Virus record (IMG/VR): IMGVR_UViG_3300020021_000044
Coordinates: 1-26,872 of that record
Origin: a virus
Strand: one strand, 5' to 3'
DNA length: 26,872 nucleotides
A model generated the notes under the pieces. It saw nothing but the letters and a program-made list of their open reading frames with translations, was not told the DNA's origin and searched no databases. Below are positions 2,682 to 24,146 of the stretch, one piece after another (the first letter of the stretch is position 1; every line of letters starts with the position of its first letter). The position numbers were made by a program, and so were the translations under genes.

Positions 2682-2921
2682 ATGTCTGTCGACGGAACCC
2701 TGATCTATCTCTCGATCGGCGAAGTGATCTGGCTGTTGCTGGATCGTCTCGGCTTGATCGAAAAGAGCCGCGAGCAGCTGCGCGCCCGGGGCGTGGCATC
2801 GTCTGGGCCGATCATCGTGACCTCGACCATGATGTCGATCGTGCTGTGGCCGGGCTACCCGATCGTGTTTGTGCTGGGGTTTTTGTTCGGGATTATCCAG
2901 GCGGTGCGGGGGCTGCGATGA
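2682..2921 (+). CDS. Small membrane protein, first gene of the long early operon
   Basis: A 79-residue protein. An N-terminal amphipathic or membrane helix (about 6-22) is followed by a basic stretch (residues 28-38) and a hydrophobic C-terminal half (about 43-75, IVTSTMMSIVLWPGYPIVFV and onward) that can form one or two membrane spans. Family not recognised. The ribosome binding site is weak. It overlaps the next gene by 4 bases (ATGA at 2918). Membrane location is well supported, role unknown. Confidence 0.65.
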   Translation: MSVDGTLIYLSIGEVIWLLLDRLGLIEKSREQLRARGVASSGPIIVTSTMMSIVLWPGYPIVFVLGFLFGIIQAVRGLR

Positions 2922-4390
2922 CGCTCAACATCCAGCCCGGCGGAATCCTGCAGCCTGGCGAGCCTCGCTATGAAAGCCTCGCCGCCGAATTCGCCTCCGA
3001 GGAATTTACCGACATGGTCGCAGGCCGCCTGGCGCTGCGACATCCGTTCTCGTTTATTCATCCGTTCGCTAACCTGCTGCCCATGATTCCGGAGCAACAG
3101 CGCGAGGCGCTGCGGGATTCGCTTTCCGAGGGACAGAACCATCCAGTCGTGTTTTATGTCGGCAAGCTGGTCGACGGACGCAACCGGGTGCGCGAGCTGC
3201 TCGAACTTCGCAAACCCATCAGCTTCATCGTGTTCGATGGCACGCCCGGGCAATTGTTCAAGTTTGTCGATGATGAGAATTTCAAGCGTCGTCATCTCAC
3301 GTTCAATGAGCGGCTGGAATATGCGGCCCGCGTCGCACGGCTGCCGCTTGGTGTGAACCGCCATACACTAGATAGCTCACGTGAGCTATCTACATCATCT
3401 TCCTTGCCTTTTACCGATCAGCCTGCCTCGGAAGTGCCAGCCGAACCGCTGATGACGCAGAAGGAGGCTTCCGAGAAATACGACGTCAGCGTTGCATCGA
3501 TCAAACGCTACAACACCGTGCTTGATCAGGGCACGCCCGAATTGCGGCAAGCCGTGCGGCAGGGCGATGTGACGGTCAACGACGCGGTCAAGCTCGCGGC
3601 ACTGCCCGCGACCGAACAAAAGCCAATCCTCGATGCGCTGCCGCGCGACGCCGCCGGCAAGCTGACGCCGGAAGCGAAAAAAGAAGTCCGAAAGGTTGCG
3701 AAGGAAGTCCGCTCCGAAGACCAGACCGAAAAAAAGCGCAAGCGCGACGAGAAGGAAAAACAACTCGGCGCCAAAATCCGCGCGCTGCCCGACGTCAGGG
3801 CCGGGCTGATCCTGTCCGACTTCGAATGGCACTTCAAGGTGCGCTCGGAAGAAACCGGCATGGACCGGCACGCCTCCAACCACTACGTCACGGCAAAAGA
3901 AGCCTCCACGCCGGAAGCGATCGTCGAGCGGCAGCGCGAGCGCATGGGAATCGCGGCGGATGACTGTATCCATCTGATGTGGTGCCCGGCCTCGTTCAAC
4001 GCCGTCGCATTGAAGGTGATGGAGCTGCAGGGTTTTACCTACGTCTCGCAGCTGGTCTGGATCAAGCCCGGCATCGGCACCGGTTTCTGGATCCGCGACA
4101 AGCACGAACTCTTGCTGATCGGCGTCAAGGGCAAGATCCCGTGCCCGGCGATGGGCGATCAATTCGACTCAGCGATCGAGGCGCCGAAGGGCGAACATTC
4201 GAAGAAGCCGGATTTCGCGCACCTGTTCGCCGAAACGTTTTTCCCCAGCCTGCCCAAGGTCGAATTGAACGCGCGGCATCACCGCGAGGGCTGGCTGCAA
4301 TGGGGCAACGAGGCGCCGGAGACCGAACAACAATCACTCGACATCGACCCGGCTTCGCCTGGCGAAGCCGGCAGCGAGGAGGCGGCATGA
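2918..4390 (+). CDS. ParB-like nuclease domain fused to an MT-A70 adenine methyltransferase-like domain
   Basis: A 490-residue fusion. Residues about 35-150 match the ParB/Srx-like fold: HPVVFYVGKLVDGRNRVREL is the GRxR signature, followed by FVDDENFKRRHLT. Residues 179-235 form a ParB-type helix-turn-helix (MTQKEASEKYDVSVASIKRY). After a Lys/Glu-rich linker, residues about 290-470 are MT-A70-like: LIWCP-type strand HLMWCP, GFTYVSQLVWIKPGIGTGFW, KHELLLIGVKGKIPC, GEHSKKPD, and a terminal HREGWLQWGNE. MT-A70 enzymes methylate adenine N6 through a DPPW motif. Here the equivalent strand reads SDFEW (D301-F302-E303-W304), so both prolines are missing and activity is uncertain. The start at 2918 overlaps the previous stop (ATGA). 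The gene contains a perfect palindrome at 3369-3392 and a strong hairpin near its end. Confidence 0.86.
   Translation: MTLNIQPGGILQPGEPRYESLAAEFASEEFTDMVAGRLALRHPFSFIHPFANLLPMIPEQQREALRDSLSEGQNHPVVFYVGKLVDGRNRVRELLELRKPISFIVFDGTPGQLFKFVDDENFKRRHLTFNERLEYAARVARLPLGVNRHTLDSSRELSTSSSLPFTDQPASEVPAEPLMTQKEASEKYDVSVASIKRYNTVLDQGTPELRQAVRQGDVTVNDAVKLAALPATEQKPILDALPRDAAGKLTPEAKKEVRKVAKEVRSEDQTEKKRKRDEKEKQLGAKIRALPDVRAGLILSDFEWHFKVRSEETGMDRHASNHYVTAKEASTPEAIVERQRERMGIAADDCIHLMWCPASFNAVALKVMELQGFTYVSQLVWIKPGIGTGFWIRDKHELLLIGVKGKIPCPAMGDQFDSAIEAPKGEHSKKPDFAHLFAETFFPSLPKVELNARHHREGWLQWGNEAPETEQQSLDIDPASPGEAGSEEAA
3369..3392. repeat. 24-base perfect palindrome inside the ParB/MT-A70 gene
   Basis: The half-site TAGATAGCTCAC is followed directly by its exact reverse complement. 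The centre is CACGTG within GCTCACGTGAGC, the same core as chromosomal parS sites recognised by ParB. It lies in the linker between the ParB-like domain and the helix-turn-helix. A perfect 24-base palindrome in coding sequence is improbable by chance. Binding by the encoded protein is a guess based on the core and position. Confidence 0.6.
4349..4371. repeat. Strong intragenic hairpin just before the next gene
   Basis: CCGGCTTCGC and GCGAAGCCGG form a perfect 10-base stem with a 3-base loop within the last 15 codons of the ParB/MT-A70 gene. It ends 15 bases before the start codon at 4387. There is no T-run, so an mRNA-stability or translation-coupling role is more likely than termination (inference). 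Confidence 0.5.
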
Positions 4391-5009: not shown

Positions 5010-5920
5010 AACCGCAAAAGCAACTGTTCCGACACCGGCCGAACGAGGGGACCTACGGCGACTGTCACCGCACAGCAATCGCGTGCGTGCTCGATATGGA
5101 CGCCAACGAGGTGCCGCATTTCATGGATGGAGGCGCGGCGGAAGATGCACACGACCGCTTCGAACGATGGCTCAACGATCGCGGCATCGCGACAATCAAC
5201 GTCGTCTTTCCTGGCAAGACGCCTCTGTACGACGTCCTTCAAACCGTTGCCGTTACAAATTCCCGGACTCACCCTGTTTTCATCCTGGGTGGACAGAGCC
5301 GCACCGGCTGCAACCACAGTGTTGTCTGCTGTGATGGTGAGATCGTCTGTGATCCGAGCCAAGATGATTCCGGCATTGTCGGCCCGTGTGACGACGGCAT
5401 GTACTGGCTGACATTCTTTGGGGCTCTGCATGCGACGACGCTACCGATGCGTAAAGCGCTGGAGGGAGGCCCGACCGACTACAAGATCGCCAGCGATCAA
5501 GCGGGAAGACTGGAGCATCCGCAAGATCGCCGGGGAGTGGCTGCATTGTTGCGGGAAATGCGGGGAGCCGACGTGAGCGAAACCCGCACCATCCATGATC
5601 CTTTCCTCAACAAGGATGTCGAGATCAGCGACCGCCTGGTCGATCGGCTGCGCGGCAAATACGCGACTGGTCCGATCCTTCCAAACGGCGAGCCGGAGTT
5701 CGGCTGGCATCAGTTTCCAGTGCCACCGATCCAGCAACAGGCGGCGGATGAAATCGAGCGGTTGCGCACGGCCCTGCAAGGCATGGTCGGTAACTTCAAG
5801 CCGTTCACGATGAAGCCAGTCGGGGCTCCCAATAGCTCGGTACGAGCTGAGCAAGATTCACAGATCAAGGCGCATGTGGCTGCGGTCGCTGTGCTGGCTG
5901 GCGGGGATATTTCCGCATGA
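5006..5920 (+). CDS. Papain-fold-like (cysteine peptidase-like) phage protein with a C-terminal extension
   Basis: A 304-residue protein starting at GTG 5006, supported by GGGGAGG at 4991-4997 and the 4-base overlap. Residues 12-150 look like a papain/C39-type fold. C20 lies in GTYGDCHRTAIACVL at the start of a helix, H104 in GCNHSVVCCDG and D116 in IVCDPSQDD, giving a Cys-His-Asp order with the expected strand context. Phage versions of this fold are common but uncharacterised; peptidase, deamidase or acyltransferase activity are all possible. Residues about 190-304 are a separate part beginning near ETRTIHDPFLNKDVEISDRL and ending in DEIERLRTAL plus a tail. I associate this with stand-alone small phage proteins, so the gene may be a fusion. 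The next gene starts inside its stop codon. Confidence 0.68.
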   Translation: MKPQKQLFRHRPNEGTYGDCHRTAIACVLDMDANEVPHFMDGGAAEDAHDRFERWLNDRGIATINVVFPGKTPLYDVLQTVAVTNSRTHPVFILGGQSRTGCNHSVVCCDGEIVCDPSQDDSGIVGPCDDGMYWLTFFGALHATTLPMRKALEGGPTDYKIASDQAGRLEHPQDRRGVAALLREMRGADVSETRTIHDPFLNKDVEISDRLVDRLRGKYATGPILPNGEPEFGWHQFPVPPIQQQAADEIERLRTALQGMVGNFKPFTMKPVGAPNSSVRAEQDSQIKAHVAAVAVLAGGDISA

Positions 5921-8900
5921 CCGCCGCCGCCCTTAAAACCCCCGCCGTCATCCTGCGCACCGCCTCAGGCGAGCCGCCGCTTGGCCCTTCGGACCTCGCA
6001 TTCCGCGACGACCAGGGCGAAATCTTCCTGCACGACAACGAGCGCTACCGCACACCAGCGACGCGGCTCGGCGTGCTGGAGCTGGAAAGCGGCCACTGGC
6101 TGGCGCTGCCGCCGGGGTTTCATATCGACGCGCCACGTTTTGAAGGCCGCAACGCTGCGCTGCGCACGGGAATAGCCCGGCTGATCCGAAAAGCCCGCCG
6201 CTATGCGCGGGCGAAAGACGGCGAGGGCACGCATTGGACGGAAGGGTTTTCCGGGCGCGTGATCGAATGGGCGTTGTCGTTGAAGGCGGAAAAGGATCTG
6301 GATCACCTCGCCCGCGAGAGTGACGCGGCACCTATCGGTCACCCCGGCCCTGAGAAGCCTAACCCGTACATGGTTCAAGGCCCAGCGCTGATCTCGTTCA
6401 GCGGCGGCCGGACATCGGCCTATATGCTGCAACAGATTTTGCAAGCGCATGGCGGGAAACTGCCGGAGGATGTGCACGTCACGTTCACAAACACGGGCAG
6501 AGAACTCGAAAAGACCCTCCGGTTCATCCACAACTGCGAAGCGAATTTTGGGGTGAAGGTGCATTGGCTTGAGCGAACTCCTGATGGCGGATTTGTTGAA
6601 GTTGGCTACAACTCGGCATCCCGATCGGGCGAGCCGTTCGCTGCCTTAATTGCAAAGAAGCAATATACGCCAAATGCGGTAACGCGGTTCTGCACGGTTG
6701 AATTGAAAATTCGCGTCATGCGCGATTTCGCGCGGTCGCTCGGATGGGAGCGCTGGAACAATCTCGTCGGCCTTCGCTATGATGAAGGTCATCGCGTTCT
6801 GAAGGCGCTTGAACGCAATGATCGCGGCAAAGAGCGGTTCAAGGCCGTGATGCCGTTGTCAAAGGCAAAGGTCACCAAGCGTGACGTGATGCAGTTCTGG
6901 TTGGGCGACAATGCCGATCCAGTGAATCTCACTCATCCGCTGCCACAAGGTTTTGACTTGGGCCTGCGCGACTATGAGGGCAATTGCGATCTCTGCTTCC
7001 TTAAGTCACGGGCCAAGCTTGAGGCCATCATTCGCGAAAACCCCGGCGCAGAACAATGGTGGGTTGAACAAGAGAAGATCGGGAAGGGCCGTTTTGTTAC
7101 TGAGTACAGCTATTCCGATCTCAAAAACCATGTGGGCCGATCTCCACTGCTCTTTGATGATCAAGAACACGATGTCGAGTGCGGACTGTCATGCGCGCCG
7201 ATCGTTGAGGACGATACCGAAGCCGGGGTGACCGATGACAAGAGCGGCGTGCGCAGTGGCGAGGTGAAACAAACTACTACCGACGCTACCGGCGAGCCGC
7301 CGGGACAAACGGGTCTCGGCAATGCTGAGCCTGATCCTGTCCGTGAGGCTGGATTACACGGCGGCTCACCGGTGGCGTTGAGCGACCCCATCGATCGCTC
7401 TCTCTGCGAAGCCCATCGCGCCCGCAAAATCTATCCCGCCGGCCACTCCTTCGCGATGACCAACCCGGTGCTCGCCGGCACCGTCAAGACCGTCGGCACC
7501 TGCACCTGCGGCCATATCTTCGTGTTCCCCGGCGGCGATTACGAACGGATGGACGCCGCGATCGAAGCCCATTGGCAGAAATTCGACACCTCTCCCGACA
7601 AAGTCGACGGGCGGGGCCACCCAATCGAGGCGGGAGATGGGGCCGTCGATCCCAAAAAGGGGGCGCGACGCGCTCCGGGAAAACGACGGGCGTCACCCAA
7701 GAAAGGCGACAATCCGGAACTCGCCGAAACCGCCTCGCCAGAGCCGGCGCTCATGATGCCTTGTGCGAACAGTGCCGGCTCGCCCCTTTCCCAACCCGGC
7801 GCTGGAGGGCAATCTTCTGCGCCGATTGTCGCGGACGCGCTCCAGTCGTCACGACAAGAGCCCGCGCCTGTTGCGCCCCCCTCCGGCGCGGGCTCGCTTG
7901 TTCAGGCTGCGCCAATTGGCGCACCCGTCGAAAAGGTCATTACGTCGCCTGATGACGTAAACGATTTACCAAACGGAGACACCGCAAGCCCACCTCGGCA
8001 CCTTGCCGATGTGGGGACGGATGGAGCGGCGAGCGCGAGCGCTTCCCAACCGTCGTATTTACTCGCGCCAGCCGACCCGGCGACTGATGAGGGGGCGAGC
8101 GGGGACGCTCGTTCGCACGCACCTCCGGCGTTTCTTTCCGCACCCGACTTCGCCACCACCATGGCCGCCGAACCGTCCGACGACTGGCCGGAACTGTTCA
8201 AGGCCGCGCATGATCTGGCCTGGCGCGAGCCGGTCAAGGTGACGGGCTCGCTCGCGGCGCTACTGGATTTCAGCAAGGTCTATGCGGCTGGCGGTGGAAA
8301 GGCCGAACGCCCGGTCTTGCGCTGGCACGGCGGCAAATGGCTGCTGGCGCCCTGGATCATGTCACACTTCCCGCCGCATCAGGTTTACGTCGAACCGTTC
8401 GGAGGTGCTGCGAGCGTGCTGCTGCGCAAGCCACGGGCTGCAGCTGAGGTCTATAACGATCTTGATCATGACGTCGTCAATCTGTTCCGGGTGCTGCAGG
8501 ACGAAGCGAAAGCGGCGCGACTTCGCGAGCTATTGATACTGACGCCATTCGCGCGTGAGGAATTTGATCTGTCTTATGCGCCGACGGACGATGACGTCGA
8601 AACCGCCCGACGGCTGATCATCCGGTCCTTCATGGGGTTCGGATCGAATGCTCACGCGACCGCAAAGACGGGCCGCGCGCAGACCGGATTCAGGGCGAAC
8701 TCCAACCGCGCGGGCACCACACCGGCGCGGGATTGGCAGAATTATCCAGACTGTCTTATCGGCACTGTCGAACGAATGCGCGGCGTCATCATTGAAAGCC
8801 GCGACGCGCTGACGGTTGCTGCATCGCACGACGGCGAAGAGACGCTGTTCTATTTCGATCCACCCTACCAGCTCGAGCTGCGCAATCCCGGCAATCCCTA

Positions 8901-9213
8901 CGACCGCAAGCACATGTACCGCCATGAACTCGATCGGGAAGGTCACATTGCGCTCTTGGAGGCGCTGAAAACCTTGCGCGGCATGGTGGTGTTGTCGGGT
9001 TATCCCGATCCGCTTTACGACGACGCGCTGCCCGACTGGCGCCGCGTCGAAATCGATGCTTTCGCCGACGGCGCGCGAGCGCGCACCGAAGTGCTGTGGC
9101 TCAATCCGGCCTGCGTGGCAGCACTCGATGCCCAGCATCCGCAGCTGTTCGATCTGGCAAGCTTCGATGCCGTCAATACCCCCCCCTCGGACGTGATGGA
9201 GGTTGAGGCGTGA
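5917..9213 (+). CDS. PAPS-reductase-like PP-loop enzyme fused to a D12-class DNA adenine methyltransferase
   Basis: A 1098-residue protein. Residues 1-140 are an unassigned N-terminal domain. Residues 155-425 are a PAPS-reductase/PP-loop ATPase domain with SFSGGRTSAYML (PP-loop S162-S167), TRFCTVELKIRVMRDF (C259) and GNCDLCFLKSRAKL (C357, C360). Together with C207 these cysteines could bind an Fe-S cluster, as in DndC-type proteins. Residues 490-560 form a small metal-binding-like module (C497, H500, C529, C531, H552). Residues about 570-755 are a Pro/Ala/Ser-rich linker. Residues 800-1085 are a Dam-like D12 methyltransferase: RWHGGKW (802-808), YVEPFGGAAS (824-833) and the catalytic DPPY at 981-984, all intact. 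It would methylate adenine N6 in phage DNA; the PP-loop part suggests sulfur or nucleotide transfer chemistry. An internal ATG at 8161 could yield the methyltransferase alone. GTGA overlaps the next gene. Confidence 0.88.
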   Translation: MTAAALKTPAVILRTASGEPPLGPSDLAFRDDQGEIFLHDNERYRTPATRLGVLELESGHWLALPPGFHIDAPRFEGRNAALRTGIARLIRKARRYARAKDGEGTHWTEGFSGRVIEWALSLKAEKDLDHLARESDAAPIGHPGPEKPNPYMVQGPALISFSGGRTSAYMLQQILQAHGGKLPEDVHVTFTNTGRELEKTLRFIHNCEANFGVKVHWLERTPDGGFVEVGYNSASRSGEPFAALIAKKQYTPNAVTRFCTVELKIRVMRDFARSLGWERWNNLVGLRYDEGHRVLKALERNDRGKERFKAVMPLSKAKVTKRDVMQFWLGDNADPVNLTHPLPQGFDLGLRDYEGNCDLCFLKSRAKLEAIIRENPGAEQWWVEQEKIGKGRFVTEYSYSDLKNHVGRSPLLFDDQEHDVECGLSCAPIVEDDTEAGVTDDKSGVRSGEVKQTTTDATGEPPGQTGLGNAEPDPVREAGLHGGSPVALSDPIDRSLCEAHRARKIYPAGHSFAMTNPVLAGTVKTVGTCTCGHIFVFPGGDYERMDAAIEAHWQKFDTSPDKVDGRGHPIEAGDGAVDPKKGARRAPGKRRASPKKGDNPELAETASPEPALMMPCANSAGSPLSQPGAGGQSSAPIVADALQSSRQEPAPVAPPSGAGSLVQAAPIGAPVEKVITSPDDVNDLPNGDTASPPRHLADVGTDGAASASASQPSYLLAPADPATDEGASGDARSHAPPAFLSAPDFATTMAAEPSDDWPELFKAAHDLAWREPVKVTGSLAALLDFSKVYAAGGGKAERPVLRWHGGKWLLAPWIMSHFPPHQVYVEPFGGAASVLLRKPRAAAEVYNDLDHDVVNLFRVLQDEAKAARLRELLILTPFAREEFDLSYAPTDDDVETARRLIIRSFMGFGSNAHATAKTGRAQTGFRANSNRAGTTPARDWQNYPDCLIGTVERMRGVIIESRDALTVAASHDGEETLFYFDPPYQLELRNPGNPYDRKHMYRHELDREGHIALLEALKTLRGMVVLSGYPDPLYDDALPDWRRVEIDAFADGARARTEVLWLNPACVAALDAQHPQLFDLASFDAVNTPPSDVMEVEA
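7858..8111. repeat. Cluster of inverted repeats in the fusion-protein linker
   Basis: Five inverted repeats follow one another: GAGCCCGCGCC (7858-7868) with its complement at 7885-7895; the palindrome at 7908-7923; TTACGTC/GACGTAA (7940-7960); CCACCTCGGCA/TGCCGATGTGG (7990-8014, one mismatch, 3-base loop); CGAGCG/CGCTCG (8096-8111). The first resembles an intrinsic terminator stem followed by GCTTGTT. They lie where the encoded protein is low-complexity. Confidence 0.5.
7908..7923. repeat. 16-base palindrome, copy 1 of 2
   Basis: TGCGCCAATTGGCGCA is a perfect palindrome, also present at 24122-24137. In both genes it is read in the same frame and encodes API-G-A. It could be a binding site, a restriction-type target or a codon-level coincidence. 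Confidence 0.5.
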
Positions 9214-9611
9214 ACAGTGGAATTTACGTGGCCTTGCGCGTGAGGTGGGCGGCCAAGTGGCGCAATTTGCGCGATGTCGGCGGCTATCCGATCACTTCGA
9301 CGTGGATCGATGAAGCCGGCGAGGGAGAGACGAAGGATCTCGGGGAATTGTGGGCGCGCGTCCTCAGTGAAGTTACCTCGTGTACCGGCATCGTCGTCTA
9401 TGCCGAACCTGGAGACTTTCCGCTCAAAGGCGCACTTGTCGAAGCGGGCATCGCGCTTGGAGCAGCGCGGACGATTATCGTCTGTCTGCCGGACGTCAAA
9501 CTGGAGGAACGCAGCTGCCGGCCGATCGGATCTTGGATCAATCATCCAGCCGTAGTGCGGAATGACTTCGTGATATCTGCGCTGATGCAAGCGAGCAGGG
9601 GGCAGCGATGA
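9210..9611 (+). CDS. Nucleoside 2-deoxyribosyltransferase-like phage protein
   Basis: A 133-residue protein starting at GTG 9210 (4-base overlap with the previous stop). It reads YVALRVRWAAKWRNLRDVGG, then ITSTWIDEAGEGE, ELWARVLSEVTSCTGIVVYA, EPGDFPLKGALVEAGIALGA and a terminal strand RTIIVCLP. The small Rossmann-like fold, the acidic GDF-P-L-K-G-A-x-x-E helix start (putative catalytic Glu) and the N-terminal YVAxRVRxAxxW strand fit the nucleoside 2-deoxyribosyltransferase/DUF4406-like group. Such enzymes exchange bases on deoxynucleosides. Its place right before a hypermodification-family gene suggests work on modified nucleotides (inference). Confidence 0.72.
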   Translation: MNSGIYVALRVRWAAKWRNLRDVGGYPITSTWIDEAGEGETKDLGELWARVLSEVTSCTGIVVYAEPGDFPLKGALVEAGIALGAARTIIVCLPDVKLEERSCRPIGSWINHPAVVRNDFVISALMQASRGQR

Positions 9612-10474
9612 TCCCCGACTACACCCCGCTGTTCTATTGGGTCCGCGAGCGCGAGCAAATCCGGCTGCGCAAGGAAATGCAGCTGGACCGTGCGTCCTGG
9701 ACGGTCGATCCGATCCTGTCGACCTATCGTTTCTGCAACGTGCGGCGCGAGGATGATCGTGGCACGATCTGGATTCGCGAAAACATCCGCGACCGGTTCG
9801 CCGGGCATCCGCATCTATGGCTGATGCTGTGCATCGGCCGGCAGATCAACTGGCCGGACACGCTCGCGGACATGATCGGCATGGGGGCATGGCCGGACCG
9901 TCCGGCATTTTCGCCCGACCGGATCACCGAAGTCCTCAACCGACGCAAGGAAGAGGGCAAGAAAATCTACACCGGCGCCTACATGATCTCGGCGCCTTCG
10001 ACCAAGGGCGCGGACAAGCAGACGTATATCGCTGAAACCGTGATCGGCGCGCTGTGGTCCCGCCGCGACGTCTTCGCAAAACACTTCGCTGGCATGCCGA
10101 CGCTGCAGCGCACGCATGAATTGATCACACGCTCGAACGGCTGGGGTCCGTTCATGGCCTACCAAGCCGTGGTCGACATGAGGTTCACGGGGCTGTTGAG
10201 CGGAGCTTGCGACATAGCGTATTGGGCGGCGGCCGGCCCCGGCACGCTGCGCGGGCTGAACAGGCTGCACGGCCGGCCCGTCGATGCCGGGCTCGGCCAA
10301 GCCCAAGCTCTATCGGAGATGCGCGCGATCTATGAGGTGGTCGAAACTGAGACCCGCGTCGCGATGGATTTTTCCGACGTGCCCAACATCCTCTGTGAGA
10401 CCGACAAGTATTTGCGCGTCAAGAACGGCGAGGGCAAGCCCCGCGCGCTCTATGTGCCGGGGAGGGGTTCATGA
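9608..10474 (+). CDS. Putative DNA base hypermodification protein (thymine pyrophosphorylase / 5-hmdU kinase / amino acid:DNA transferase group)
   Basis: A 288-residue protein. The opening LFYWVREREQIRLRKEMQLD is followed by DPILSTYRFCNVRREDDRGT and IWIRENIRD. This R-F-x-N-x-R-R-E-D-D block is the signature I associate with the alpha-glutamyl/putrescinyl thymine pyrophosphorylase, 5-hmdU DNA kinase helical domain and ADDT group, described computationally for phage thymine hypermodification. The C-terminal half has GWGPFMAYQAVVDMRFTGLL, the family's second conserved block, and then FSDVPNILCETDKYLR. Proteins of this group act on 5-hydroxymethyluracil or its pyrophosphate in phage DNA. No hydroxymethylase (thymidylate-synthase-like) gene is in the window, so the precursor source is unknown. 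Genes on both sides overlap it by 4 bases. Confidence 0.78.
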   Translation: MIPDYTPLFYWVREREQIRLRKEMQLDRASWTVDPILSTYRFCNVRREDDRGTIWIRENIRDRFAGHPHLWLMLCIGRQINWPDTLADMIGMGAWPDRPAFSPDRITEVLNRRKEEGKKIYTGAYMISAPSTKGADKQTYIAETVIGALWSRRDVFAKHFAGMPTLQRTHELITRSNGWGPFMAYQAVVDMRFTGLLSGACDIAYWAAAGPGTLRGLNRLHGRPVDAGLGQAQALSEMRAIYEVVETETRVAMDFSDVPNILCETDKYLRVKNGEGKPRALYVPGRGS

Positions 10475-17139: not shown

Positions 17140-17646
17140 ATGCCGGCGCTATCGGACCCCAAGCTTGAAGCGTTCACCCAGGCGCTGCTCCTGAATATCG
17201 CCAATGGCATGCCGCGCAGCAAGGCTGCGGAGGCAGCCGGCAAACAGGCAGGCTATCGCGGGTCCTCACTGGGTCCGAATGCGCGCAAGCGCGCCAACCG
17301 CGCCGATGTCAAGGCGCGCATGATCGAACTCGCCGCGCCGCAGCTGGCGGCGGTGGAAGCCGAGATCGCGGTCGACGTGGCCAAGGCAAAAATGCGTCTC
17401 GGAGAGATTATCATGGCCAACGTCAATTGGGCCGAAACCGTGATGCCGAAAGACGTCATCAACGCTGTCCGGCAACTCGCCGCGATCGAAGGTTGGAACG
17501 CGCCGACAACGGTGAATCTGAACAAAAATGTATCCACTGACTGGAGCACAGACGAACTGGTCGCCTTCGTCGCTAACGCCGCAGCACGCCTTGATCGAGG
17601 TGAGGCGGCGGATCGAAGCGAAGCAGAGCCTGATCGGGTTCACTGA
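17140..17646 (+). CDS. terS: Terminase small subunit
   Basis: A 168-residue protein. The N-terminal helix-turn-helix part reads EAFTQALLLNIANGMPRSKA, AEAAGKQAGYRGSSLGPNAR, ANRADVKARMIELAAPQLAA, the layout of small terminase subunits that recognise packaging DNA. The middle (VAKAKMRLGEIIMANVNWAE) and INAVRQLAAIEGWNAPTTVN are also typical. AGGA at 17130-17133 is the ribosome binding site, 6-7 bases before ATG 17140; an upstream in-frame ATG at 17062 would fall within the hairpin and is rejected. The gene is directly followed by, and overlaps, the large subunit. Assignment rests on both motif pattern and position. Confidence 0.82.
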   Translation: MPALSDPKLEAFTQALLLNIANGMPRSKAAEAAGKQAGYRGSSLGPNARKRANRADVKARMIELAAPQLAAVEAEIAVDVAKAKMRLGEIIMANVNWAETVMPKDVINAVRQLAAIEGWNAPTTVNLNKNVSTDWSTDELVAFVANAAARLDRGEAADRSEAEPDRVH

Positions 17647-19015
17647 GTTTACCAATCCGCGCTACAAGACAGCTCATATTCACCGCGAGATCGCGCAGCA
17701 GCTGGAACGGGTCGAGCGCGGAGAGATCGACCGTCTGATGCTCCTGGTGCCGCCGCGGCACGGCAAGTCGGAACTGGCATCGCGACGTTTCCCCGCACGG
17801 TACCTTGGGCGGTTTCCGCATCGACAGTTCATCTCGTCATCGGCAACCGGATCGTTGGCTGAAGATTTCGGGCGCGATGTCCGCAACATCATAGGTAGCG
17901 CCGAATACAAGGTTCTGTTCGAAACGCGCCTTGCCGAAGACAGCCGGGCCAAAGGCCGGTGGAGCACGAACGAAGGCGGCTCGTATTACGCGATTGGTGT
18001 CGGCGCGGCTGTGATGGGCCGCGGTGCTCACGTCTTTATGATTGACGATCCGTTCGGAACGATGGCCGAAGCGCGCAACGAAACGCAGCGCAAAAACGTC
18101 TGGGACTGGTACACCGGCACGGTCTACAACCGGTTGGAAGAAAACGGCGCCATCGTTCTCATCAATCATCGGATGCATGAGGACGACCTCACGGGAATGC
18201 TGCGGGCGCAACAGGCTGCCGGCGGCGATCGATGGGAGGTCGTCGAACTGAAACCGGATATGGAATCCGGTACCGCACTTTGGCCGGAGAAGTATCCGAT
18301 CGAGGCGCTGGAGCGGATCAGGCGCAACACCACGGCACAGGATTGGTCGGCGCTTTACCTGCAAAACCCGACGCCCGACGAAGGGGTGTATTTCAAGGCC
18401 GACTGGCTGCGGCCTTACGATAAACCGCCGGCCCGCGCCACGCTGATGGTCTACGGCGGATCCGACTATGCCGTGACCGACGATGGCGGCGACTACACCG
18501 TTCATGTCGTCGTCGGCATGGATCCAGAAGAGAGGATGTATCTTCTGGATTTATGGCGCGGCCAGAAGCAGGGCGATGTCTGGATCGATGCTTTCTGCGA
18601 CCTTGTGCTTGAGTGGAAACCGATGGGGTGGGCCGAAGAAACCGGCCAGATCAAATCGGCGATCGGTCCGTTTCTTAATCGACGGATGAATGAGCGAAAA
18701 GCCTATGTCTCTCGCGAGCAGTTCTCGACGCGGACGGGAAATAAGGCAGTCCGCGCTCAATCGATTCGCGGCCGCATGGCGCTCAACGGTTTGTACGTCC
18801 CGTTTTCGGCGCCATGGTATCCCGCCTTGCGCAGCGAACTATTGAGCTTTCCGTCCGGGAAGCATGACGACCAGGTCGATGCGCTGGGGCTTGTTGGCCA
18901 ACTGCTCGATCAGATGATAGCCGGCCTTAAACCGCAAAAACCTGACGTCGACAAGCGCGACGCCTACCGCGACTCTAGCGACGACCGCTATTCGGACTCA
19001 ACCGCGACGCTGTGA
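17528..19015 (+). CDS. terL: Terminase large subunit (ATPase and nuclease)
   Basis: The DNA packaging motor. It is 495 residues if started at ATG 17528. Walker A is PPRHGKS (75-81); Walker B IDDP (172-175); coupling region NHRMHEDDLTGML. The RNase H-like nuclease domain starts at GGSDYAVTDDGGDYT (D313) and ends with KHDDQVDALG (D447, D448, D451), so the catalytic acids are present. LYLQNPTPDEGVYFKADWLR is the typical bridge. The 17528 start overlaps terS by 119 bases; GTG 17600 or TTG 17591, just before RRRIEAKQSLIGFTEFTNP where homologs I remember begin, may be the real start. Closest in style to Terminase_6/P22-like headful enzymes. Confidence 0.94.
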   Translation: MYPLTGAQTNWSPSSLTPQHALIEVRRRIEAKQSLIGFTEFTNPRYKTAHIHREIAQQLERVERGEIDRLMLLVPPRHGKSELASRRFPARYLGRFPHRQFISSSATGSLAEDFGRDVRNIIGSAEYKVLFETRLAEDSRAKGRWSTNEGGSYYAIGVGAAVMGRGAHVFMIDDPFGTMAEARNETQRKNVWDWYTGTVYNRLEENGAIVLINHRMHEDDLTGMLRAQQAAGGDRWEVVELKPDMESGTALWPEKYPIEALERIRRNTTAQDWSALYLQNPTPDEGVYFKADWLRPYDKPPARATLMVYGGSDYAVTDDGGDYTVHVVVGMDPEERMYLLDLWRGQKQGDVWIDAFCDLVLEWKPMGWAEETGQIKSAIGPFLNRRMNERKAYVSREQFSTRTGNKAVRAQSIRGRMALNGLYVPFSAPWYPALRSELLSFPSGKHDDQVDALGLVGQLLDQMIAGLKPQKPDVDKRDAYRDSSDDRYSDSTATL

Positions 19016-19037: not shown

Positions 19038-19235
19038 ATGACGAACGACGAAGTGACCGCCAAGATTGCAGGAACCGCGCCGATCGAGGCGGCGCCAGCT
19101 GGAGCGGAAGCCGAGCCCAGCGTGCACGACCGCGCCCATGCCCTGGTCGCGGAGTTCGAACACGCCATGGCCAACAACGCGCCGGTGACGCTGCCGATGA
19201 TCCGGGAGTTGAAGGCGCTGCTAGACGTCGCGTGA
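19038..19235 (+). CDS. Small phage protein, unknown
   Basis: A 65-residue protein with a low-complexity Ala/Glu N-terminal half and a helical C-terminus (ALVAEFEHAMANNAPVTLPM, IRELKALLDVA). The ribosome binding site GGAGAGAG lies just before the ATG. No family recognised. It sits between terL and a set of small genes and overlaps the next by GTGA. Confidence 0.62.
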   Translation: MTNDEVTAKIAGTAPIEAAPAGAEAEPSVHDRAHALVAEFEHAMANNAPVTLPMIRELKALLDVA

Positions 19236-19561
19236 CGCGGCACATGCCGGAAGACGACCACGGCGAACTGCCGGTCTGTGACCCGCTTCTCGAACCCGAC
19301 AACCGGACGAGTGGCGCGACGTTTGCGACGACCCAACCGATGATCCGCACAGCGAGGATGATGATGGCTGAAACCCCCGTCGCCCCCAACAACAAGGAAG
19401 TGGATTTCAAGGCCAAGCCGGTCAGTGAGCCTTCCACCGTCACCAGTGCCGCGCCGGTCAAGTCGCTGTCGCCACGCGGTCGCAAGAAGGCAAAGCGCGC
19501 GATCAAGCGCGGCATGATCTCGGAGAAGGCGGCCAAGAAGCATTTCGGGGACGGCTACTGA
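19232..19561 (+). CDS. Small basic-tailed phage protein, unknown
   Basis: A 109-residue reading from GTG 19232 (4-base overlap). A start at ATG 19363 (MAETPVAPNNKEVDFKAKP), with AGGA shortly upstream, would give about 66 residues and cannot be excluded. The C-terminus is strongly basic (SPRGRKKAKRAIKRGMISEK then AAKKHFGDGY), suggesting nucleic-acid contact or packaging into the head. No family recognised. Confidence 0.55.
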   Translation: MTRHMPEDDHGELPVCDPLLEPDNRTSGATFATTQPMIRTARMMMAETPVAPNNKEVDFKAKPVSEPSTVTSAAPVKSLSPRGRKKAKRAIKRGMISEKAAKKHFGDGY

Positions 19562-19562
19562 G

Positions 19563-19937
19563 ATGGTGACCGAACCGCCGCTCGGCAGCCGCATGCATGC
19601 CTACGGCGTGGTGCTCAAGGGCGCGCTGAGCGGCACGCGCTGGATCGAATTCCTCCAGGCGGTAGCGCAAGCCATCGGCATGAATGCGGTCGCGGAGCCC
19701 GCGGTGTGGACCTATCCGGTCGAAGGCAAGGGCGGCACCGGGCAGACCATCGTGCTGCCGATCACCGAATCCTTCCTCGCGCTCGACACATGGGCCGATC
19801 ATGACGGCGCGTATCTGTTGGTGTGTTCGTGCCGGGAGTATTTTTCCGCCGACATCGACAAGGTCACAATCGCGTTCGGGCTGAAAGCGGAGATTGTGAC
19901 TGGCCGGCGCTTTTACGCGGAGCTAAATCTAAAATGA
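19563..19937 (+). CDS. SpeD-like protein (S-adenosylmethionine decarboxylase fold), divergent active site
   Basis: A 124-residue protein whose length and motif spacing match class-1 prokaryotic AdoMet decarboxylase (SpeD). The core reads LPITESFLALDTWADHDGAY then LLVCSCREYF. In SpeD the ESH segment self-cleaves at the serine to form the pyruvoyl cofactor, with a catalytic His 5 residues and a catalytic Cys 20 residues after the serine. Here S70 is kept and C90 is at +20, W77 aligns, but the +1 His is Phe and the +5 His is Asp75. The N-terminal MHAYGVVLKGA matches the first SpeD strand. It may be a decarboxylase for another amino acid, as reported for SpeD paralogs, or an inactive relative. 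It overlaps the next gene by ATGA. Confidence 0.65.
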   Translation: MVTEPPLGSRMHAYGVVLKGALSGTRWIEFLQAVAQAIGMNAVAEPAVWTYPVEGKGGTGQTIVLPITESFLALDTWADHDGAYLLVCSCREYFSADIDKVTIAFGLKAEIVTGRRFYAELNLK

Positions 19938-20299
19938 AAATCATAATTGAGAGCATTCCGCACGGTGATCATCGCTATTCGACACTCGGCGACTATTGGC
20001 GTGATGATGCCGGTGTTTTGCAAATCCGTGTCAGTGAGATGAGTGACCCTCGCGATATGGTTCTTTGCGCGCTGCATGAGTTGGTCGAAGTTCTGATCTG
20101 CGAACATAGGAGTATCAGCGAGCCTGACATCATGGCCTTCGACGTCGCACATCCCGACGCTGAAGAGCCCGGCGAACTGAAGGATGCGCCCTATCACAAA
20201 GAACATGTGTTCGCCGAAACGATAGAGCGGCTGACGGCGCTCCAGCTTGATCGCGACTGGAACGACTATACCTACGCCGTCGCATCGCTGCCGTGGTGA
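19934..20299 (+). CDS. Phage protein with HExxE motif
   Basis: A 121-residue protein. It opens with MKIIIESIPHGDHRYSTLGD and carries MVLCALHELVEVLICEHRSI in the middle. HELVE is an HExxE motif in a helix, as in some zincin-like metal proteins (HExxH families with a substituted third ligand). SEPDIMAFDVAHP downstream may supply another acidic ligand. The C-terminal third has YHKEHVFAETIERLTALQL. It lies between the SpeD-like and ATP-grasp genes, overlapping the first and 10 bases from the second, so a shared process is likely. Protease activity is not established. Confidence 0.62.
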   Translation: MKIIIESIPHGDHRYSTLGDYWRDDAGVLQIRVSEMSDPRDMVLCALHELVEVLICEHRSISEPDIMAFDVAHPDAEEPGELKDAPYHKEHVFAETIERLTALQLDRDWNDYTYAVASLPW

Positions 20300-20309
20300 A
20301 ATAGGCCGG

Positions 20310-21653
20310 ATGTCCGAAAACCTGAAATCCAAATGCTGCTTGGTCTGGGACAACGGCATCTTTACCGAAATCGCCGTGACGCTCGCAAAAGACTTCGGCC
20401 GCGTGCTGTACTACGTGCCCTGGACCTCCGGCATGCCGAAGTCGAACGCGCTTCTGATCGGCCACGGCGTCGAAGGGATCGAGCGGATCTCCTCGCCCTG
20501 GCCGTATTACGACGAGATCGACCTTTGGGTGTTTCCCGACGTCTATGAAGGTGAGTTGCAGGACTGGCTGGTATCGCAGAAAAAGCGGGTCTGGGGCTGC
20601 CGGATGGGCGCCGAACTCGAGCTGGACCGGCCCAAGTCGAAGGAAGCCTCAAAGAAGCTCGGCATCGATATCGGACCCTACAAAGTCATCACCGGGCTCG
20701 CGGCGCTGCGGACCTACCTGAAGAACAACGACGACCAATGGGTCAAGATTTCGTCCACCCGCGGCGACATGGAAACCTTTGGCGCCAAGTCTTACGAGAA
20801 GGTCGAACCCCGGCTTGACGAACTCGAACACAATCTCGGCGCCAAAAAGAAGATCATGGAATTCACCGTCGAAGCCGGCATCAACGATGCGGTCGAGACC
20901 GGTTACGACGGCTACTGCATCGACGGCAAGTTTCCAAAGGGCGCGATGACCGGGGTGGAGGTCAAGGACGAAGCCTATCTGATGAAGACGGTGAGCTGGC
21001 GCGAGCTTCCCGATCAGGTGCGCAGCGTCAACGCCAAGCTTGCGCCGGCCTTGAAGAAATACGGCTACCGCGGCTTTATCTCGACCGAGGTCCGCTGCAC
21101 CGAAGACGGCAAGGCCTACCTGATTGACCCTTGCTGCCGCGCCGGCTCGCCGCCGAACGAACTCTACCAGGTCATGATGGCCAACCTCGCCGACGCGATC
21201 TGGTACGGCGCCCAAGGCATCGTGATCGAGCCGGAATTCAAAGCCAGATGGGGTGCGGAAGTCTTGCTGATCTCCGAATGGGCGGATCAGAACTGGATGC
21301 AGGTTTCGTTTCCGGCAAAAGTCCGCGACAACGTCAAGCTGCGCAACTTCTGCCGGATCGAGGATCAGTACTACGTCATTCCGCAATGGACCGGGTCAGC
21401 CGAAATCGGCGCCGTGGTCGCGCTCGGCGATACGCCTGATCAGGCGATTGCCGAATGCAAGCGCATCTGCGAGCTGGTCGAAGGCCATCTGTTGTCAAAG
21501 CCGGTCGATGCGCTCGACATCGCCCGCGAGCAGCTGGACGAAATCCTGGGCCCGGACAAGCCGAAGTCGAAGACCGAAAAACAGGCCGAAGCGCTGCACG
21601 CCAAGGGAAGCATCTCGGACAAGCAGTTCGAGAAGATGGTTGCAAAGGATTGA
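20310..21653 (+). CDS. ATP-grasp ligase
   Basis: A 447-residue protein. ATP-grasp features: the ATP-binding strand DQWVKISSTRGDMETFGAKS; the central EFTVEAGINDAVETGYDGYC with IDGKFP; the C-terminal catalytic part ALKKYGYRGFISTEVRCTED, GKAYLIDPCCRAGSPPNELY with the acidic metal ligands (STE and ID273) and R277. Such enzymes join a carboxylate to an amine or thiol through an acyl-phosphate. The N-terminal 90 residues form a Rossmann-like pre-ATP-grasp domain (CCLVWDNGIFTEIAVTLAKD). The helical C-terminus ends in KQAEALHAKGSISDKQFEKM. Substrate unknown. It sits in the late operon next to the SpeD-like gene, before the portal. Confidence 0.8.
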   Translation: MSENLKSKCCLVWDNGIFTEIAVTLAKDFGRVLYYVPWTSGMPKSNALLIGHGVEGIERISSPWPYYDEIDLWVFPDVYEGELQDWLVSQKKRVWGCRMGAELELDRPKSKEASKKLGIDIGPYKVITGLAALRTYLKNNDDQWVKISSTRGDMETFGAKSYEKVEPRLDELEHNLGAKKKIMEFTVEAGINDAVETGYDGYCIDGKFPKGAMTGVEVKDEAYLMKTVSWRELPDQVRSVNAKLAPALKKYGYRGFISTEVRCTEDGKAYLIDPCCRAGSPPNELYQVMMANLADAIWYGAQGIVIEPEFKARWGAEVLLISEWADQNWMQVSFPAKVRDNVKLRNFCRIEDQYYVIPQWTGSAEIGAVVALGDTPDQAIAECKRICELVEGHLLSKPVDALDIAREQLDEILGPDKPKSKTEKQAEALHAKGSISDKQFEKMVAKD

Positions 21654-21655
21654 CC

Positions 21656-21844
21656 ATGCACAGCTACCGCAGCGCGCTTTGGTACCACCGCGCGGGGTTT
21701 GTCATGTTCGAAATGTTGCGCTTGAACGGATATAGCCGCTTCGAAGCTTTTGTCTGCCTCCTGGCACATCGCGTGTGCGAGACGCCGATCTATTGGCATC
21801 CCAAGCGCGAGCGGGAACGCCTTCGTGCTGCGCGCCACGCATAA
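21656..21844 (+). CDS. Small phage protein, unknown
   Basis: A 62-residue protein starting two bases after the ATP-grasp stop (TGACCATG). It reads MHSYRSALWYHRAGFVMFEM then LRLNGYSRFEAFVCLLAHRV and ends in a basic tail (HPKRERERLRAARHA). Amphipathic helices with a Tyr/Trp-rich start; no family recognised. Confidence 0.58.
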   Translation: MHSYRSALWYHRAGFVMFEMLRLNGYSRFEAFVCLLAHRVCETPIYWHPKRERERLRAARHA

Positions 21845-21898: not shown

Positions 21899-22162
21899 AT
21901 GGCTGAAGGCAAGGGCATGACGAAATCGTCTCCGAAGGGCAGCAAGAAAACGGAAGGCCCGGACCCATGGGAAGTCCGCGACGCCATGCACACCTTGCTG
22001 CGCGCCGGCGAGATCGTGAAGGACAAGAAGATGCTGGCGCTGGTCCGACAGGAAGCCAAGAGCCACGCCAGCAAGATGCGTGACGTCGCGGACCAGGCTG
22101 GCCAGCTTGCGATGATGGGCCGCATCTCGCCGAAGCAGATGGCGAAGCTGGGCTCCCGCTGA
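21899..22162 (+). CDS. Small helical phage protein before the portal
   Basis: An 87-residue protein with a basic disordered start (GMTKSSPKGSKKTEGPDPWE) and a helical remainder: VRDAMHTLLRAGEIVKDKKM, LALVRQEAKSHASKMRDVAD, MMGRISPKQMAKL. Its stop is followed by the portal start after a single base, so the two are coupled. A head-assembly role is suggested by position only. Confidence 0.63.
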   Translation: MAEGKGMTKSSPKGSKKTEGPDPWEVRDAMHTLLRAGEIVKDKKMLALVRQEAKSHASKMRDVADQAGQLAMMGRISPKQMAKLGSR

Positions 22163-22163
22163 C

Positions 22164-24146
22164 ATGCCGCAAGCCTCCGCCCAGTTCCAACGCGACAACG
22201 CGCGCCGCGGTCAACAGGACAACAACCCTGTTGAGGACAAGCGCGACCGCGCCCGCAATTTCGACGACGAAAGCGATATGTTTCTTTCTGTCCGCACGCT
22301 GCGGACGCAGTACCTCGATTATCTCGACAGCAAGGTCGACGAAATCGAGGAGCAGAAGGATTCAAGGCGGTACTTCCACGGCGCGCAACTGACAGCCGAG
22401 CAGCTCCGGGTGCTGCAACGCCGTCACCAGCCGGTCCAGATCTGGAACGAGGTCGGGCGCAAGATCAACGGCATCGTAGGTCTGGTCGAGCGGATGCGCT
22501 GCGATCCGAAGGCGGAAGGGCGCAACCCGAAGAGCGAAGAAGGCGCCCAGATCGCAACGGAGTCGATCCGCAGCGTGCTGGATGGCAGCCAGTTCAAGAC
22601 ATCAACCGGCTACTGGTGTCTGTTGCAGACGGCAATCGATGCCATCGGCGGGGTGCAGCTTGTTTTGCAGAAGGGTGACAAGGGCGACCCGGACGTCGGC
22701 GTGCACTGGGTGATAGGCGACGAATATTTCTATGATCCGCGCTCGTACCAGTTCAACTTCAAGGACGTGCGTTACGAGGGCATCGCAAAGTGGCTCGATC
22801 TGGATTCCGCGATCGAGATCTTTCCCGAGAAGGAAGACGAACTCGAAGGCCTGTTCGCCGGTGACAGCGATCTCACCACCAATTCCGATCGCGAGATCAA
22901 GTGGATCATCTCGACCACCAAACGGCTGCGGATGGTCGAACACTGGTACAAGTACAAGGGCCGCTGGTGCTGGGCGTTCTATGTCGCCAACACGCTGCTC
23001 GACCAGGGCGTCTCTCCGTTTTTCGACGAGAGGGGCAACAGCGCGTCCTCGTTCGAAATGTTCTGCGCCGCGATCGACCATGACGGCGACCGCTATTCGT
23101 TCGTGCGCACCTTCAAGGGACCGCAGGACGCGCTGAACCAGGGCAAGTCCAAGACGCTGGCGCTGGCGAATTCGCGCCGGATCAAGATGGAAAAAGGCGC
23201 GGTCGACGATGTCGAGATCGCCCGTCGCGAAGCGGCACGACATGACGGCGTTCTGGAGGTCAACCCGAACAAGATGTTCGAGATCCAGGATACCCATCCG
23301 GACATCGCGACGTTCTCCGCGTTCACTGATTCCGCCAAGACCTGGCTGGATGGGTTTGCCAATTCCAATATGGCAGCCGCCGCGGGCGTGGGCCTCACGA
23401 ACCTTTCCGGCAAGGCGCTGGAACTGTTGCGCCAGCCGGGCATGGCCGAACTCGGCCCGTTCGTGATGGCGCACCGGATGTTCAAGATCGGTCTCTACCG
23501 GAAAATCTGGACTGCCGTGCAGCGGCACTGGAAAGCCGATCGCTGGATCCGGGTCAACTCGAACGAGAAGCTGGCGCAGTTCATTCAGTTGAACGGGCTC
23601 GACGTCGACGAATGGGGCCGGCCCACCATCATCAACGCCGTCGGCGCGCTCGACGTCAACATTGCACTCGACGAAGGTCCGGACATCATGTCGATGATGC
23701 AGGAAACCTACGAAATGTTGAAGGGCTATCCGCCCGGAACATTCCCGCCGCAGGTCCTGATCGAGATGAACCCGAACATCCCGCGCAGCGAAAAGGACCG
23801 GCTGTTGAAGATGATGGCCCCGCAACAGAAACCGCCGGACCCGATCGCGGAGATGGCCAAGCGCCTGCATCTGGAATCCCTCGCCGGCAAGAACGCCAAG
23901 ACCGCGGCAGAGACGCAAAAGACGCTGGCGGGAGCAGACCAATCGGCCGCAACTGCGGAAGAAAAGCGCGCCGGCATCGGCCATCGCGAAGCGGGGCTGC
24001 ATCTGGGCGCTGCCGAGTTTGTGCGGGATTCGATGTTCGAAGCCCACAAGGTGATGGCGCCGTTTTTGGCGCAGCAAGGACAGCCGGGGCCGGGCGCACC
24101 GATGCAGCCACAACCACAGCCTGCGCCAATTGGCGCAGGCGTCTGA
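22164..24146 (+). CDS. Portal protein, P22 gp1-like
   Basis: A 660-residue protein, close to the size of P22-type portals. Signs are the N-terminal RTQYLDYLDSKVDEIEEQKD, FHGAQLTAEQLRVLQRRHQP, QIWNEVGRKINGIVGLVERM, the central DEYFYDPRSYQFNFKDVRYE, and TFSAFTDSAKTWLDGFANSN followed by SGKALELLRQPGMAELGPF. This is the ring through which DNA enters the head. The tail (about 585-660) is a helical barrel-like stretch (AETQKTLAGADQSAATAEEK) followed by a Pro/Gln-rich end; the last codons contain the palindrome at 24119-24140. P22-type portal plus separate scaffold and capsid suggests a short-tailed phage (inference). Confidence 0.87.
   Translation: MPQASAQFQRDNARRGQQDNNPVEDKRDRARNFDDESDMFLSVRTLRTQYLDYLDSKVDEIEEQKDSRRYFHGAQLTAEQLRVLQRRHQPVQIWNEVGRKINGIVGLVERMRCDPKAEGRNPKSEEGAQIATESIRSVLDGSQFKTSTGYWCLLQTAIDAIGGVQLVLQKGDKGDPDVGVHWVIGDEYFYDPRSYQFNFKDVRYEGIAKWLDLDSAIEIFPEKEDELEGLFAGDSDLTTNSDREIKWIISTTKRLRMVEHWYKYKGRWCWAFYVANTLLDQGVSPFFDERGNSASSFEMFCAAIDHDGDRYSFVRTFKGPQDALNQGKSKTLALANSRRIKMEKGAVDDVEIARREAARHDGVLEVNPNKMFEIQDTHPDIATFSAFTDSAKTWLDGFANSNMAAAAGVGLTNLSGKALELLRQPGMAELGPFVMAHRMFKIGLYRKIWTAVQRHWKADRWIRVNSNEKLAQFIQLNGLDVDEWGRPTIINAVGALDVNIALDEGPDIMSMMQETYEMLKGYPPGTFPPQVLIEMNPNIPRSEKDRLLKMMAPQQKPPDPIAEMAKRLHLESLAGKNAKTAAETQKTLAGADQSAATAEEKRAGIGHREAGLHLGAAEFVRDSMFEAHKVMAPFLAQQGQPGPGAPMQPQPQPAPIGAGV
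24119..24140. repeat. 22-base palindrome with the recurring 16-base core, copy 2 of 2
   Basis: The core TGCGCCAATTGGCGCA (24122-24137) is the same as at 7908-7923 and is extended by three matching base pairs on each side. It lies in the last codons of the portal gene, about 20 bases before the next gene, where it could act as an mRNA hairpin or protein-binding site. Confidence 0.55.

Follow-up and report, generated by a model that had tools for sequence, protein, structure and literature searches.

A SpeD-like protein and a PurD-like ATP-grasp ligase paired among phage virion genes: a candidate amine-conjugation module

The closest described relatives of the SpeD-like protein analysed here are class 1B SpeD (Thermotoga maritima TM0655, structures 1tlu/1vr7) and its SpeDA/SpeDC offshoots. 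Residues S63, H68 and C83 are the essential set of SpeD (PMC10407285). In T. maritima, Glu62 can activate Ser63 as a base, and Ser55 is positioned to assist, although an S55A mutant was nonetheless activated; for human AdoMetDC, roles have been given for Ser68, Ser229 is required and His243 is needed in the second step (PMC3975893). Unlike in SpeD, SpeDA and SpeDC systems, the partner of the phage protein is an ATP-grasp ligase and not spermidine synthase or agmatinase. The nearest published pairing is that of an AdoMet decarboxylase with a glutathionylspermidine-synthetase-like ATP-grasp ligase in bacterial operons, noted in PMC11237479 (with Li 2019 cited there). Those operons share with our locus the idea of a SpeD adjoining an ATP-grasp amide ligase, but they are bacterial, use another ATP-grasp family and have membrane-stress genes around them, whereas the pair reported here lies among phage late genes and includes a PurD-like ligase. 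A literature search, mostly outside subscription papers, returned no published description of a phage SpeD-ligase pair.

The window, that is, the whole stretch of DNA analysed, is a complete IMG/VR virus record of 26,872 bases from a soil phage whose host is probably a Bradyrhizobium-type bacterium. A ligase relative with 77% identity lies on a contig of Bradyrhizobium sp. YR681, which in our genome scan matched an IMG/VR virus record. Seven small to medium genes, all on the plus strand, occupy the interval between TerL and portal, and the three enzyme-like genes of the original prediction are indeed among them:

17528-19015, plus strand: terminase large subunit TerL, for context (phrog_38, E 2.3e-104)
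19038-19235, plus strand: small conserved operon protein without a family, 65 aa (HMM match in 14 loci)
19232-19561, plus strand: small basic protein, 109 aa, C-terminus RGMISEKAAKKHFGDGY, with the same motif as the ligase (motif scan, homologue tails)
19563-19937, plus strand: SpeD-like protein with a predicted AdoMet decarboxylase fold, 124 aa (PF02675, profile matches, AF2 model, VIA, residue table)
19934-20299, plus strand: HxxxE protein, originally called HExxE, 121 aa (11-member alignment)
20310-21653, plus strand: predicted PurD-like ATP-grasp ligase, 447 aa, with a SHOCT-like tail at about 420-447 (AF2, Foldseek, VIA, profiles)
21656-21844, plus strand: small operon protein, rarely conserved, 62 aa (found in 2 loci)
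21899-22162, plus strand: small protein, 87 aa, C-terminus MGRISPKQMAKLGSR, with the same motif as the ligase (motif scan, homologue tails)
22164-24146, plus strand: P22-type portal protein, for context (PF16510, E 4.6e-69)

With its true start at 19934, the HxxxE gene overlaps the SpeD stop codon in an ATGA. Both SpeD and the ligase are under purifying selection, with dN/dS values of 0.17-0.40 and 0.08-0.23, respectively.

The resemblance of 19563-19937 to SpeD proved to be above chance. Pfam AdoMet_dc (PF02675) matched the window protein with an E of 2.1e-5 and 25.2 bits, just passing the cut-off of 25. A single-sequence PDB search was empty and a profile was needed for matches, that of 18 relatives retrieving Aquifex SpeD 2iii (E 8e-4) and Thermotoga SpeD 1tlu/1vr7 (E 0.02). 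In the profile alignment, S70, W77 and C90 correspond to Ser63, Trp70 and Cys83 of T. maritima, and Phe and Asp stand at two His positions (F71 for His64, D75 for His68), exactly as had been proposed. With the AlphaFold (AF2) model (pLDDT 92.5), the top four Foldseek matches were SpeD, and VIA-align gave a Z of 12.8 over 107-109 residues for T. maritima SpeD (1vr7/1tlu), 11.6 for the Aquifex protein and 9.2 or lower for all others. In this model, S70 starts the strand that follows a two-residue tight turn (strands 56-67 and 70-77), in agreement with the self-cleavage turn foreseen for it, and would thus occupy the expected place for self-cleavage. Compared with the T. maritima enzyme, the protein would share the fold, the cleavage Ser, the preceding Glu, a Ser/Thr at Ser55, the catalytic Cys and a length of about 124 aa; it differs in having Asp for His68 and Phe for His64, with 14-17% identity in the structural alignment. 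By profile and model, 19563-19937 is predicted to be a divergent SpeD.

Among 48 distinct SpeD sequences adjoining the ligase, S70 is present in all (48/48), as is C90 (47/47), while E/D at position 69 and T/S at position 62 each occur in 46/48. Position 75, equivalent to His68, is occupied by D in 40 sequences, by H in 6 and by E and L in one each, so that most members have the Asp form; the SpeD of locus L040 is mixed, with His at the F71 position and Asp at 75. The His-type relatives score 49-59 bits with Pfam AdoMet_dc and, by sequence, look like unmistakable, plain SpeDs. Ser70 is predicted to be the pyruvoyl-forming residue, and Cys90, Thr62 and Glu69 are further predicted functional residues. 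We do not claim a bona fide AdoMet decarboxylase, because His68 is not kept (D75 in the window) and because spermidine synthase (speE) was found in none of 21 records, possibly fragments, in a search that was positive in control genomes. The same absence would argue against ordinary spermidine synthesis.

Catalytically dead SpeD paralogues are known from trypanosomes, and the loss of His68 in most members could be taken to mean that the Asp-type SpeD is likewise a non-catalytic partner that regulates or completes the ligase through its fold only, like the trypanosome AdoMetDC prozyme. Such a role is made improbable by the retention of the cleavage Ser, the Cys and the residues at positions 69 and 62 at the frequencies just given, and by the occupation of the same slot by His-type SpeDs with the full set of residues.

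The window ligase matched no Pfam family at E 1, GARS models included, and no significant PHROG, and a single-sequence PDB search was uninformative; a profile of 21 relatives retrieved PurD (2yw2/1vkz) with an E of 0.001-0.002. Its AF2 model (pLDDT 86) matched PurD over residues 1-417 in Foldseek (E 4e-20), and in VIA ranks 1-13 were all PurD (Z 25.9-29.7), followed by PurT, PurK and biotin carboxylases (Z 21-24). The originally predicted ligase fold was therefore upheld, with Z values of 21-30 to many ATP-grasp enzymes; matches among viral structures were much weaker ATP-grasp proteins, the best with an E of 1.6e-9. An alignment of 23 sequences contains 100 invariant columns, and K146, E188, E196, E260, D273 and R277 are invariant in the ligase. 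The modelled fold, together with the conserved Lys and acidic metal ligands (K146, E260, D273), would place the protein in the ATP-grasp superfamily, and we interpret it as PurD-like. It resembles PurD/GARS (phosphoribosylamine-glycine ligase) in the whole-chain fold (Z 29.7), in the N-terminal domain and in an R-x-G-x-P segment (D-P-C-C-R-A-G-S-P in the ligase, E-F-N-V-R-L-G-D-P in PurD). It differs from PurD in lacking a Pfam GARS match, in an identity of about 15%, in its extra SHOCT-like tail, in the absence of a purine gene context and in the ExN metal motif, where E-F-N has become D-P-C and the metal site may therefore differ.

In IMG/VR, we found 159 ligase relatives, of which 80 were kept, and a scan of 84,980 genomes yielded three loci, one of them the YR681 contig that matches a virus record, which left no bacterial pathway context to draw on. 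The family was found almost solely in viral contigs. Searches with two members found no ligase in 50,697 annotated phage records, and neither two Asp-type SpeDs nor the HxxxE protein had a match in annotated phages, leaving no cultured phage model for any of the three. The ligase family is conserved, without a description and absent from current libraries.

To count the pairing from the ligase side, we took the 67 loci with at least 1.5 kb of upstream sequence. SpeD lies directly upstream of the ligase in 47 of them, always on the same strand, and a separate scan begun from SpeD found the ligase at 43 of the 44 SpeD loci with room. SpeD identities among the reciprocal pairs range from 31 to 74%, and at many junctions the stop and start codons overlap or no more than 20 bases lie between the genes, indicating that the two genes are often translationally coupled. 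Because this pairing is so consistent, the ligase can be used as a marker for finding and assaying such systems. About 30% of the ligase loci have no neighbouring SpeD. In 21 ligase records of this kind, which may be fragments, no SpeD was found elsewhere in the record, suggesting that SpeD is dispensable in some lineages. The sole exception to the pairing from the SpeD side is locus L130 (3989-4372), a divergent Asp-type SpeD among virion genes with no ligase nearby.

We compared the type of SpeD with the phylogeny of the ligases. When 73 ligases on a tree are labelled by their SpeD (Asp type, His type or none), the label switches 11 times; three changes are required for the His type, at least two of them forced by strong branches, and the ligase of L014 (His) groups with those of L012 and L013 (Asp). 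This swapping of Asp and His SpeDs beside the same ligase suggests a ligase in need of what the decarboxylase makes, and an Asp form that still works; from the sequences, a shared product appears to be its best explanation.

Joint occurrence of all three genes had been expected. SpeD and ligase do occur together across distant phages, but the HxxxE gene adjoins the ligase in only 10 of the 67 loci, and it does so together with SpeD in five, the window being the sixth. It stands before SpeD in L071, L072, L077, L022 and L073, between SpeD and the ligase in the window, before the ligase without SpeD in L023, L059, L061 and L084, and after the ligase in L081. The gene is thus an optional third member or accessory, and not a fixed part. 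The proposed HExxE motif is present in the window (HELVE, H48-E52), but E49 is Ala in two relatives and only H48 and E52 of the motif are invariant, together with R14, D20 and D70 in an 11-member alignment that was too divergent for a scan of the collection. No Pfam or PHROG family matched the protein, which is possibly metal-binding. We rejected an HExxH-type zinc peptidase, given the HELVE motif and the Ala after the His in two relatives, and the metal-binding domain of iron-dependent repressors, matched by one member at 19.6 bits against a cut-off of 27.

The pair was found among virion genes in every context examined, and these amount to at least four different virion-gene contexts. In the relatives of the window, it lies between TerL and portal. 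At more distant loci, its neighbour is a tail protein in L066, and in L077 tail-fibre-like genes flank it on one side and TerL/portal on the other. It lies upstream of tail-fibre-like and virion genes in L084 and of a tail gene in L075, and in L020 and L056 it follows large proteins that resemble minor head and other virion proteins; virion neighbours in other contexts include tail protein, TerL, portal and tail tube. The large proteins of L020 (1855-4746) and L056 (97-3423) match minor head protein and DarB-like antirestriction families. The position of the pair varies while its virion surroundings are constant, which favours expression late in infection and lends plausibility to a role in particle assembly. 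The two genes could instead be independent accessory genes that share a permissive site between virion genes by chance, as the many small variable genes of the terminase-portal gap and the non-universality of the pair would allow; reciprocal pairing at 43 of 44 loci, over SpeD identities of 31-74% and at least four virion-gene contexts, brings this explanation close to refutation.

A pattern at the C-terminus, G-x-[IVL]-[ST]-x-[KR]-[AQ], occurs in exactly three window proteins, the 109-aa protein, the ligase and the 87-aa protein. These three unrelated late proteins (19232-19561, 20310-21653 and 21899-22162) carry the shared tail motif as RGMISEKAAKKH, KGSISDKQFEKM and MGRISPKQMAKL, respectively. 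Across all loci, the pattern lies near the end of 146 plus-strand and 2 minus-strand open frames, related copies counted, and shuffles gave an expectation of approximately 3-4 pattern-bearing frames per strand. A looser form of the tail is present in 42/42 distinct ligase copies from portal-bearing contigs and in 0/26 complete copies from other contexts, the other three negatives being incomplete copies; five further tail-positive copies come from contigs without a detected portal. For the window ligase tail, SHOCT (PF09851) was the sole Pfam match, at an E of 0.014 and 15.6 bits, below the cut-off of 27. The likeness lies in a C-terminal helical hairpin of about 28 residues with a G-x-IS/IT turn (PMC3581485), and the differences in the sub-threshold score and in the lack of a SHOCT match for the other tails tested against Pfam. 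SHOCT itself gave a negative result when tested for oligomerisation, and has been proposed to act in localisation (PMC3581485). We read the phage version as a putative lineage-specific docking tail. What is new is that the ligase in terminase-portal phages has a SHOCT-like tail common to two other proteins of the operon.

We propose, with a probability of roughly 0.4, that SpeD and the ligase are the two enzymes of an amine-conjugation module whose expression coincides with that of the late (virion) genes. In a first step, which we infer from residues and fold, the SpeD paralogue would cleave itself between E69 and S70, converting S70 into the pyruvoyl cofactor; T62 and E69 would help, C90 would protonate, and D75 would replace the His that normally completes processing. 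The enzyme would then form a primary amine by decarboxylating an amino-acid-type substrate, for which a basic amino acid is more likely than AdoMet. In a second step, which we infer from the fold, the PurD-like ATP-grasp enzyme would activate a carboxylate as an acyl phosphate and couple the amine to it, the HxxxE protein, where present, being an accessory. In the third and weakest step, the product or the ligase would act while particles are assembled, a late protein or packaged material being possible targets; this is probable because the pair lies among virion genes and because the ligase tail of terminase-portal phages is common to two late proteins. The original idea of making an amine and then ligating it thus stands as the best reading, in keeping with the SpeD fold, the processing residues, the ligase fold and the co-occurrence. 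Retention of the pair as a unit in many different phages suggests that the amine is made and attached during particle building, and the proven action of phage SpeDs on arginine or ornithine (PMC9992855) makes an amine-producing role realistic.

Several observations count against a conjugation module: His68 appears as Asp in most members, the ligase seems able to do without a phage SpeD at about 30% of loci (possibly fragments), L130 has a SpeD without a ligase, the PurD ExN metal motif reads D-P-C in the ligase, and the late region is also home to many unrelated accessory genes. A narrower version, a protein-modification system in which an Asp-type pyruvoyl enzyme and a tail-recruited PurD-like ligase place an amine onto carboxylates of late proteins during assembly, possibly those that share the tail, is doubtful.

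Alternatively, the pair could serve polyamine metabolism and leave the virion unmodified: a pyruvoyl arginine or ornithine decarboxylase would raise the level of agmatine or putrescine available for DNA packaging, while the ligase, in the manner of glutathionylspermidine synthetase, would store or tune the polyamine by conjugating it to a small carboxylate. Some phage SpeD homologues are proven decarboxylases of arginine or ornithine (PMC9992855, PMC10407285), phages can pair homospermidine synthase with a glutathionylspermidine synthetase homologue (PMC9992855), and AdoMet decarboxylase and ATP-grasp ligase are linked in the bacterial operons cited above. Yet no polyamine pathway gene accompanies the pair (speE in 0 of 21 records, possibly fragments) and the ligase is PurD-like rather than of the glutathionylspermidine type, so that we regard this auxiliary role as somewhat unlikely.

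The pair had also been linked to a thymine-hypermodification-type gene elsewhere in the window:

9608-10474: HMUDK_hel protein (5-hmdU DNA kinase helical domain; E 6.5e-45)

Phage phiW-14 has a putrescinyl-thymine system, and pair and HMUDK_hel protein could jointly serve thymine hypermodification of the phage DNA. The link was not supported: HMUDK_hel was found in 0 of the 31 other ligase records, possibly incomplete, by the same search that was positive in the window, and in the window it belongs to a different gene block, 9 kb from the pair. Thymine hypermodification was accordingly rejected as a general partner, and a joint role in the window is very unlikely. Equally hard to credit is that the SpeD paralogue depletes AdoMet in order to weaken restriction-modification by the host, with the ligase as unrelated cargo. 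Anti-restriction genes are usually early, and the late-region location, the near-obligate pairing with the ligase and the loss of His68 all oppose it, despite the existence of phage AdoMet-degrading enzymes (T3 SAM lyase; PMC7877911).

If the amine-conjugation reading is right, the decarboxylase-ligase pair would be a new entry among the few phage chemistries for decorating carboxylates of virions or small molecules, and the Asp and His SpeDs would offer a natural test of whether Asp can replace His in pyruvoyl self-processing.

Three further loci deserve mention. Microcystis phage MaAM05 (MW495066.1, 244225-252578; our L091) has an operon in which speE and speB come after two neighbouring SpeD genes; one SpeD looks canonical, and the other may be neofunctionalised. 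In the window, 5917-9213 encodes a protein of 1098 aa that combines a PAPS-reductase-like domain in its N-terminal part with a D12 (Dam-type) adenine methyltransferase domain in its C-terminal part, and the 514-aa open reading frame at 2846-4390 has an MT-A70 methyltransferase domain at its C-terminus (E 2.5e-11) and an N-terminal part that looks ParB-like by eye.
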